Below are positions 47,739 through 51,555 of a stretch of 64,000 bases of DNA, in pieces. Origin of the DNA: Pseudanabaena sp. BC1403 (GTDB lineage Bacteria > Cyanobacteriota > Cyanobacteriia > Pseudanabaenales > Pseudanabaenaceae); NCBI RefSeq assembly GCF_002914585.1, contig NZ_PDDM01000004.1:1-64000 (forward strand), written 5' to 3'. The notes beneath the pieces are model-generated. The model was given only the letters and a program-made list of their open reading frames with translations, did not search any database and was not told the DNA's origin. A program made the translations under genes and the position numbers. How positions within the stretch are numbered: position 1 is the first letter of the stretch; the number at the start of each line of letters is the position of its first letter.

Positions 47739-47922
47739 AACCAGTGCCCGCGATCGCGAAGATAAATTTGTAAATATATATTACGTTTTCATACAACTCA
47801 ATCAATTAATACATTACTCAACCATTATTTTAAACAATAGAATGACTATGCTTATAGCTATAAATAAGACTTAGTAAGAATCTTAGAATATCCACCTTAT
47901 GTTATTAATGTGGAGAAATAAT
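47739..47922. other. AT-rich spacer before the GGDEF gene
   Basis: No gene is visible; the 74-codon frame that spans the MITE is an artefact of the repeat. The only clear site is the GGAG at 47912 for the next gene. Confidence 0.5.
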
Positions 47923-48840
47923 ATGGACAATGAGATTAAAGCTAACTTTAGTGCTTTTAAAGAGCCGACACTTGACATGAAAATTCCTCTCAAACATTTA
48001 CTTGAACAAAGTGAAGAAATCAAAGCAGATGTCGAGAAGGCTGCGGTACAAATTAGTTCGGTGAATGCAGTCCTTACGAATGACACTAAAGTCCTGCCTC
48101 CATTTCCGACCATCGAAGAGGTGATTGCTCAGAACGAAGAAGTCGAAAAAAAGGTGGTAAAAGCTGCGGAAGATCTGGATTATGTTAATGCCGAACTCAC
48201 TAAGCAGGTGGAGGAGAGAATCGATATCGAATCTGAACTGAGGCAGACAAGAAAAGAGCTGTTTGAGTTGCGTACTGATTTATCGGAATCTCAAGCAAAG
48301 GAGAAAGATGCACGACATAGTGCACTTCATGATCCACTCACAGGATTGCCAAATCGTTTGTTGCTGGAACAGCATCTCGATCATGGATTGACTCAATCAA
48401 GACGGCATGGTTGGAAACTCGCGCTCATGTTCATCGACCTAGATAAATTTAAGAACATTAATGATACTTACGGTCATGACGTTGGCGATAAGGTGTTGAT
48501 CACTGTGGCAAAACGTTTACAAGATTTTGTACGTGGTGAAGATATCGTCAGTCGATGGGGCGGCGACGAGTTTATCTGTGTTCTCTTAAACATCAAGCTT
48601 GAAGAGGAAGTAATTAAACTTGCTAATAAGATGGTTGCTCGAATTTCTGAGGACTGTGATTTTGACGGAACCATTGTTTCTGTAGGAGCTTCTATTGGGA
48701 TTGCCATATGTCCTAGAGATGGAGAAACGGCTGATATCCTTTTTAAGCAGGTTGATAGAGCTATGTATAGATCAAAAGGATCTTCCAAGAGCGTTAAGCT
48801 GTTTAGCGGAGCTATTTTGGATATTCCTGCTGTTGAATAG
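47923..48840 (+). CDS. GGDEF diguanylate cyclase with an N-terminal coiled coil
   Basis: The 305-residue protein makes cyclic di-GMP from GTP. A helical N-terminal part (about 20-135, Glu/Lys-rich heptads) precedes a complete GGDEF domain with HDPLTGLPNR, FIDLDKFKNIND, the active-site WGGDEF and IGIAICPRDGE. There is no sensory domain or membrane helix. The ATG at 47923 has GGAG seven bases upstream and is preferred over an earlier in-frame ATG at 47899. The N-terminal helices resemble coiled coils that mediate dimerisation. No EAL domain nearby. Confidence 0.9.
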   Translation: MDNEIKANFSAFKEPTLDMKIPLKHLLEQSEEIKADVEKAAVQISSVNAVLTNDTKVLPPFPTIEEVIAQNEEVEKKVVKAAEDLDYVNAELTKQVEERIDIESELRQTRKELFELRTDLSESQAKEKDARHSALHDPLTGLPNRLLLEQHLDHGLTQSRRHGWKLALMFIDLDKFKNINDTYGHDVGDKVLITVAKRLQDFVRGEDIVSRWGGDEFICVLLNIKLEEEVIKLANKMVARISEDCDFDGTIVSVGASIGIAICPRDGETADILFKQVDRAMYRSKGSSKSVKLFSGAILDIPAVE

Positions 48841-50130: not shown

Positions 50131-51096
50131 CTAATTTTCTTGAGGATGAATCACTAACACGCGGACTTTAGAATCAGTTGTGGCAATGTCTGAATCTATT
50201 GGATCGCTTTGATTTTGTTCTAAGTCGAGTTTTAATCCTAGAAACTTCAATGATTGGCAAATGAGCTCGCGGATGATCTCCGAATTTTCACTTAATTCAG
50301 CTGTAAATACCAAACCATCCATACCACCTAAAATCATCAACATGGAACCAAGGCACGATCTCAAACGATGAATGTAAATATCCAAGGCTTGTTTTGCTCT
50401 AGAATTATCCGTTTCAACCTCAGATGCTACTGATCGTGGGTCATCTGACACTTGAGCAGCAGACATTAAATTCGATTCTTTAACCACTTCTCGATTTGAA
50501 GAATCATCAGTGTTGTTATCTTGTCGCATCATTTCACTCAAAACGCTTGGGTCAATTGAGCCAGAGCTATAATCAATCATCAACCCCTCTAAAGGAGTGA
50601 ATCCTGTAACCGTATCAATGATCTGACCATTGTGGATTGCGGCTAGAGAACACCCACCGTCTAAATTGCAAGTGATCAGACGCAGCTCATTGAGATCGCG
50701 CTTTAAGATTTGGGCAGCTCGTTCAGCACAATACTGGTGAACACTTTCATTAAGTCCATAATGTCGTTTATCAACTTCTACAGGAACGGTAGGAAGTGCA
50801 GAGATAGTAGCAAGATTAGAACTATTAGAAACTGCCGCAAGTTTATCAGTATCAGTATCATTAGGTTCCGCTGGTGGATTGGAAGCTATCTCTCGCCAAT
50901 CCAAATCTAATTTTGCACAAATTTCAAAAAAGGTAAACCGCTCAACTGCTTTTCCTGCAAAAAAACGATAAATCGGTTGACGTGTTTTTATACCGACTTC
51001 AATGGCAAGATATTCTTGAGTCCAACCTTTACTATTAAACTGCTGCTTAGCTTGTTTAATTCCTGATAGTGAGGCTTTTAATGATCGCTTAGAGAT
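50131..51096 (-). CDS. Helix-turn-helix fused to a degenerate acetate-kinase C-terminal domain
   Basis: The open frame spans 50131-51108 and encodes about 321 residues from a possible ATC start at 51096 (AGGA 9-10 bases upstream). No ATG, GTG or TTG lies upstream of residue 65. Residues 4-72 (SKRSLKASLSGIKQAKQQF, KGWTQEYLAIEVGIKTRQPI, FFAGKAVERFTFFEICAKL) match the HTH found at the start of cyanobacterial NACHT/TPR signalling proteins. A linker follows; then residues about 108-320 align with acetate kinase from its HGTSH motif to its C-terminus (RLITCNLDGG, GFTPLEGLMIDYSSGSIDP, GGMDGLVFTAELSENSEIIR). Catalytic His180, Arg241 and His208 equivalents are changed, so it is likely a ligand-binding pseudo-kinase regulator. 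It may also be decaying, given the missing start. Confidence 0.7.
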   Translation of the reverse strand: MSKRSLKASLSGIKQAKQQFNSKGWTQEYLAIEVGIKTRQPIYRFFAGKAVERFTFFEICAKLDLDWREIASNPPAEPNDTDTDKLAAVSNSSNLATISALPTVPVEVDKRHYGLNESVHQYCAERAAQILKRDLNELRLITCNLDGGCSLAAIHNGQIIDTVTGFTPLEGLMIDYSSGSIDPSVLSEMMRQDNNTDDSSNREVVKESNLMSAAQVSDDPRSVASEVETDNSRAKQALDIYIHRLRSCLGSMLMILGGMDGLVFTAELSENSEIIRELICQSLKFLGLKLDLEQNQSDPIDSDIATTDSKVRVLVIHPQEN

Positions 51097-51108
51097 AGTA
51101 GGAAATTC

Positions 51109-51555
51109 CTATTGTGTAATTCGTTATTATCTATGTTAACACTAATCAAAGCCTTAGTGTTTCAAGATATATATTTGTAATGAAATCGAACATTTAATAC
51201 ATATCAATCATTAAAAGATTAGACTTTTTGTAGAATAAGTTCAAAAAAACCTGTAACCTAAAAGGATGTTCAATTAAAATCCTTGAATTCTAATCTCTGC
51301 AAAGTTTTTAAGGTTTTTGGCGATTTTTAATCACTATTGCCTAACAGGTCTAAAGCAATCCGAAATGATTTGTTGCCAAGGCATTATCCATAAGCGAAAA
51401 GTTTAGGGAAAGAGAAGAAAGTACTATGGAGAATATCAACAAAGAGAGAACCATAGATCTTCGACTGTACTTTAAAGGAAAAATCACCAAGATTAGCTAT
51501 GGGCTTGCAGTGTAATTAAAGAAATCAATCTCAGTAAAAAATTCTACTAAATAAC
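51109..51555. other. 447-base spacer with a gene fossil
   Basis: AT-rich, with the DUF6544 tail fossil at 51426-51515. The rest shows no gene, hairpin or element. It must contain the promoter of the debranching-enzyme gene. Confidence 0.55.
51426..51515 (+). pseudogene. Duplicated C-terminal tail of the DUF6544 gene
   Basis: A 29-codon frame ends RLYFKGKITKISYGLAV, matching the C-terminus of the DUF6544 protein 1.5 kb upstream (RLYFKGKITKISYEFT). Thirty-one consecutive bases (51471-51501 and 49966-49996) are identical. It is either the remnant of a tandem paralogue or a by-product of the insertion of the HTH gene. Confidence 0.8.

Follow-up and report, generated by a model that had tools for sequence, protein, structure and literature searches.

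A conserved fusion of an XssQ-type HTH with a degenerate acetate-kinase domain in Pseudanabaena, and its apparent AUU/AUC/AUA start codon

Does the minus-strand frame at positions 51108-50131 of the window (the whole 64,000-nucleotide stretch of Pseudanabaena sp. BC1403 DNA analysed here) encode a working protein, where would its translation begin, and what could a helix-turn-helix (HTH) joined to half of an acetate kinase (AckA) do? The sequence-only reading had claimed that this frame is open over its full length, and 325 open codons were indeed found between an upstream TAG (51109-51111) and the TAG that ends the frame. The parts of the gene and of its upstream region are collected in Table 1.

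Table 1. Features of the fusion gene and its upstream region, in window coordinates.
Feature	Position	Strand	Basis
27-bp upstream element, TGTTCGATTTCATTACAAATATATATC-like	51167..51192	-	Profile match (E=1.2e-4); gene-type-specific pattern
Shine-Dalgarno-like AGGAA	51106..51110	-	Sequence; SD strength comparison
Proposed start codon ATC (AUC)	51094..51096	-	AUC/AUU/AUA in 16/16 orthologues
XssQ-type HTH, frame residues 5-78	50875..51096	-	Identity to XssQ and HTH-NACHT proteins; model helices
Variable linker	50809..50874	-	Omega about 0.56; low pLDDT
Degenerate acetate-kinase domain II	50137..50808	-	PF00871 (E=1.1e-58); residue table; Foldseek
Stop codon TAG	50131..50133	-	Sequence

The N-terminal half had been likened to the HTH of cyanobacterial NACHT proteins, and residues 5-101 do match the N-terminus of a NACHT protein of about 775 aa encoded in the same genome (64% identity), with identities of the fusion HTH to Pseudanabaena HTH-NACHT paralogues ranging from 64 to 74%. 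Against a NACHT protein on the Synechocystis plasmid pSYSM, which we took as XssQ from its gene surroundings (glycosyltransferase and two-component genes), 41/74 residues were identical (55%; E=2e-24). XssQ, a STAND protein whose N-terminus is an HTH, bound DNA in EMSA and activates exopolysaccharide genes (PMC8205485). Judged by these alignments, the fusion HTH is of the XssQ type found in HTH-STAND activators, and its recognition-helix region, KTRQPI(W/Y)RFF, is common to the fusion and the HTH-NACHT paralogues. A NACHT/STAND ATPase, present in the same-genome paralogue, gave no match in the fusion protein.

The C-terminal half was matched by PF00871 (acetokinase) at residues 101-324 with E=1.1e-58, in agreement with the acetate-kinase likeness noticed earlier; since the match covers only model positions 155-386 of 392, the absence of the N-terminal half of the enzyme, also claimed, holds as well. 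What is retained is the C-terminal domain (domain II), and the HTH occupies the place of the missing domain I. Identity of this domain is about 50% to cyanobacterial AckA and 63% to the second AckA (AckA2) of genome G020. Two AlphaFold models were built. The first drew on 16 sequences and came out poorly, at a mean pLDDT of 51; the second used a deeper alignment. The better model (mean pLDDT 66.7) contains a five-helix HTH and an AckA core and is of moderate confidence, with residues 82-118 (the linker area) and 171-234 below pLDDT 50. Its top Foldseek matches were acetate kinases (E=1.6e-13); the ROK-type regulator MecR2 (4ija) was only a weak match of the first, poor model, and the PF00480 ROK domain had no match in the fusion protein.

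Catalytic residues were compared against a baseline of 29 cyanobacterial AckAs, numbered as in the Methanosarcina acetate kinase. Six replacements are fixed in all 16 fusions, namely H180N, G181E, H208N, G210D, R241S and G331E (N120, E121, N148, D150, S181 and E271 of the window protein), and G239D (D179) is found in 15/16, while about 53-54 AckA-invariant positions are kept. The earlier claim of catalytic loss is right for H180, H208 and R241 and wrong for the C-terminal Glu: the equivalent of Methanosarcina E384 is retained as E324, just after the residues aligned to 381-383. Four invariant glycines of the phosphate and nucleotide loops (181, 210, 239 and 331) have turned acidic. From this residue pattern kinase activity appears unlikely, as does binding of ATP or acetyl phosphate, because H180, H208 and R241 are lost and the four glycines are acidic.

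These replacements bear directly on the sequence-only proposal that the AckA-derived half is a sensor of acetyl phosphate or of a nucleotide and in this way switches the HTH. Many core AckA-invariant columns are kept, and the nucleotide site of the active enzyme sits in domain II, as that proposal would have it; against it, Asp or Glu at the four loop glycines in nearly all orthologues, together with the lost H180, H208 and R241, should repel phosphates, and the protein lacks domain I, without which the substrate site is incomplete. We consider such sensing very improbable. The broader part of the proposal, an HTH and a dead ASKHA domain serving together as a regulator, most likely stands, with the pair conserved in orthologues. 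The suggested defence context gained no support, as no known defence model in PADLOC matched the fusion protein.

Full-length orthologues with both domains joined were found in 15 further genomes (14 of Pseudanabaena and one of a sister genus), with identities of 70-87%. Among 390 genomes of the class, the fusion was not seen outside Pseudanabaena and this sister genus; the remaining matches listed consisted of the AckA part alone, and almost all of their frames are as long as a normal AckA. Median dN/dS (omega) was 0.14 for the HTH and 0.13 for the AckA half, the mark of strong purifying selection on both, and 0.56 for the linker. A decayed or chance fusion is ruled out by the 16 orthologues and the low omega, and the window frame is a real gene without decay. 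Genome G012 holds the fusion as a truncated remnant, and an HTH fragment in G027 was rejected as a fusion since it belongs to a broken HTH-NACHT gene with ATG. The AckA halves of the fusions form a single clade (support 100/100), and the enzyme nearest to this clade is the second, catalytically intact AckA of G020 rather than a housekeeping AckA. That full-length acetate kinase (L022; G020:C22, frame covering 1489-2184 and upstream) carries an EF-hand-like insertion (DLDGDGFVSREEW...DIDRDGKISPAE) within its N-terminal half.

Gene surroundings of the fusion vary among clades, and the fusion therefore has no fixed operon partner. On sequenced plasmids no fusion was found. Separately, the HTH-NACHT gene was seen to be plasmid-borne in two Pseudanabaena strains (NZ_AP017563.1 and NZ_CP112876.1; L176 and L193). 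Two fusion genomes (G029 and G008) had no visible HTH-NACHT paralogue in assemblies from which plasmids may be missing. A further observation concerns a GGDEF (diguanylate-cyclase-like) gene at window positions 47899-48840 on the plus strand, 1.3 kb past the end of the fusion frame: members of its family lie near the HTH-NACHT gene in five genomes (G025, G012, G021, G024 and G032) and near the fusion in G026, and one lies near an orphan copy of the 27-bp element in G018. These neighbours hint at a link to c-di-GMP or exopolysaccharide.

Where translation begins was less obvious. The sequence-only reading had noted that no ATG, GTG or TTG precedes the HTH, which is correct, and had placed the first start available to a gene caller at residue 65, which is not: the first canonical start of the window frame is the TTG of codon 69 (50904). 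In 14/16 orthologues, likewise, the in-frame stretch from the preceding stop to the HTH contains no ATG, GTG or TTG; L015 and L019 do have such codons, but these are unconserved and stand 35 or more codons upstream. An in-frame stop stands four or five codons 5' of the HTH in 11/16. The first canonical start of L007 is codon 176, far inside the AckA half, and its conserved HTH therefore needs a non-canonical start. An upstream or frameshifted start was rejected, as the orthologues have no common open frame bearing a canonical start.

An ATG directly before the SKRSLKAS segment, which that reading had suggested looking for in relatives, was present in no orthologue. The codon directly 5' of the S/A-K/T-R-S-L motif is ATC in ten of the sixteen, ATT in five and ATA in one (AUC, AUU or AUA, abbreviated AUH), and at the homologous position all 20 HTH-NACHT paralogues have ATG-GCN. 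Conservation has its edge at this codon, with A and T invariant in 16/16 and eight forms of the codon before it. An AGGAG-like Shine-Dalgarno (SD) sequence ends 6-9 nt upstream of the AUH codon; it reads AGGAG in most orthologues, and the window copy, AGGAA, overlaps the in-frame upstream TAG. Predicted SD pairing was stronger for the fusions than for the HTH-NACHT paralogues (median -6.9 vs -2.6 kcal/mol, p=6e-4); other local ATG frames gave -2.1 kcal/mol, and the fusion SD ranks within the best 8% of these. A strong SD is what would be expected if it compensates for a weak start. On the strength of codon position, SD, conservation edge and lack of alternative starts, the gene appears to begin at AUU, AUC or AUA in all sixteen species, and we infer that initiation takes place at this codon.

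Such a codon might also be a poor start that is merely tolerated: the ancestral AUG would have changed to AUH, a stronger SD would have rescued initiation, and drift would have done the rest, with no regulatory meaning in the codon even if a DNA-binding role persists. The third base of the AUH codon resembles usage in other Ile codons, and although it has changed at least four times with no change to G, G is missing from all 16 rows in 17/53 fourfold columns too, so that the lack of AUG is in itself weak evidence of selection against AUG. Set against tolerance are the invariant A and T beside a freely varying preceding codon, the failure of those repeated third-base changes ever to return to AUG, and an SD that exceeds that of the paralogues. 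We regard a codon without regulatory meaning as rather unlikely.

Precedents for starts of this kind are few. In E. coli, infC and pcnB start with AUU (PMC9410913), and S. aureus has non-AUG starts in infC (AUA), cvfC1 (AUU) and ccpN (AUA), of which cvfC1 and ccpN keep the weak start and an extended SD in relatives, gave about 10-30% of the AUG level in reporters and, for ccpN, have an output that responds to the medium (PMC13009471). A strict analogy in which infC is AUU-started here as well was discarded, since infC in these genomes appears to start with ATG. A search for AUH starts of XssQ-type HTHs elsewhere in the phylum was also fruitless, the remaining pattern matches being chance ones in frames of 5-76 codons without an HTH.

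What the HTH might bind is suggested by the region upstream. An element resembling TGTTTGATTT-N-RTTACAAATATATACA lies about 60-210 nt before the start in 14/16 fusion genes (L014 and L021 are without it; the window copy is 71-96 nt 5' of the proposed start) and also 5' of some HTH-NACHT genes. A pattern search allowing one mismatch across 25 genomes returned nine sites, all nine upstream of fusion or HTH-NACHT genes. The profile search returned 20 sites at E<0.002 (the next at 0.02). Nineteen of them are at fusion or HTH-NACHT genes and either had served to train the profile or match a training sequence exactly; the twentieth, the sole new one, is an orphan sited at the end of a contig in G018. 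No wider regulon was seen, with no sites beyond the fusion and HTH-NACHT genes save this orphan. The common element and the identical recognition region fit a shared binding site, that is, a candidate operator; the element may instead be an inherited promoter and no operator of the fusion HTH. Extra direct and inverted copies of TGTTTGATTT were seen upstream of seven fusions (L009, L010-L012 and L015-L017), and in L015 they form the palindrome TGTTTGATTTTAAAATCAAACA. In L008, L017, L019, L020 and L021 insertions of ~40-110 nt, some hairpin-like, separate the element from the start; these are perhaps small mobile elements.

Taken together, we favour, at a probability of about 0.5, a dedicated DNA-binding regulator with a 27-bp operator, a dimerising AckA domain II, a repressor or competitor role towards the HTH-NACHT gene, and synthesis limited by the AUH start. 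The HTH, derived from an XssQ-like HTH-STAND (NACHT) activator, would bind the 27-bp element of both genes. Domain II, stripped of its kinase residues, would serve as a dimerisation module and possibly also as a module for a small ligand or cation; in Salmonella AckA the dimer is held mainly through this domain (PMC3475010). Because the NACHT activation module is missing, the protein would most likely repress or compete with the HTH-NACHT activator and act likewise on its own gene. An AUU, AUC or AUA start with a strong SD would keep the protein scarce and make its synthesis sensitive to IF3 and to how much initiator tRNA is available, in the manner of infC and ccpN elsewhere. Fusion, purifying selection, AUH position, SD strength, catalytic loss and the common element are established by comparison of sequences, from which DNA binding to the element, dimerisation and repression are presumed. 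Points against this reading are the lack of the element in L014 and L021, the two fusion genomes with no visible HTH-NACHT paralogue, the possibility that the element is an inherited promoter, the limited confidence of the structure model and the failure to see a wider regulon. A more specific form of this reading, in which a new HTH and AckA domain II regulator has the AUH codon read the state of initiation and antagonises the HTH-STAND activator through the common operator, is offered tentatively and seems to us less probable than its opposite.

A dimer-forming domain II could also act on the enzyme itself, with the fusion pairing with full AckA through the domain II interface, lowering or targeting its activity, and the HTH being secondary. 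The AckA dimer is built by this domain, and a normal AckA is encoded in every fusion genome (in the window's genome it lies on a different contig, in G024 about 3 kb from the fusion gene). An HTH constrained as much as the AckA half argues otherwise, as do a recognition region and an upstream element in common with HTH-NACHT regulators and an identity to housekeeping AckA of only about 50%; we judge pairing with AckA quite unlikely and retain the DNA-binding regulator as the preferred reading.

An enzyme fold turned regulator is known from sugar kinases: in the ROK regulators (NagC, Mlc, XylR; PF00480) an N-terminal HTH sits on an ASKHA kinase-like domain that is used for regulation. The fusion follows the same design principle of an HTH and a kinase-like ASKHA fold, and differs from ROK proteins in having domain II of PF00871 only, no PF00480 and an XssQ-type HTH. 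ROK proteins are described as sugar kinases or transcription regulators (PMC4856308). A limited search of the open-licence literature returned no report of an acetate-kinase fold turned regulator, nor one of an HTH and AckA combination with a conserved non-AUG start. With XssQ and other HTH-STAND proteins the fusion shares the HTH, and with the Pseudanabaena paralogues also the identical recognition region and the common upstream element; unlike these activators it is without the NACHT ATPase and the C-terminal sensor, has AckA domain II instead, and has AUH for AUG. From AckA (PF00871) it keeps the dimer-forming domain II, whereas domain I is gone and H180, H208, R241 and glycines 181, 210, 239 and 331 are replaced.

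Like infC and pcnB of E. coli and infC, ccpN and cvfC1 of S. aureus, the fusion gene combines a near-cognate AUH start with an SD; unlike infC, pcnB, ccpN and cvfC1, it encodes an unrelated protein, and its start is proposed from sequence comparison. To our knowledge, conserved non-AUG starts beyond infC are rare, and those of regulators were mapped only recently, in Gram-positive bacteria. Gene callers accept ATG, GTG and TTG starts only, and the fusion protein should therefore be truncated or missed throughout the genus; further AUH-started genes may escape notice likewise. The present locus adds a cyanobacterial non-AUG case, drawn from comparison alone, in which the AUG-keeping paralogues serve as a built-in control, and it makes the question of weak start codons as regulatory inputs directly testable within one gene family.
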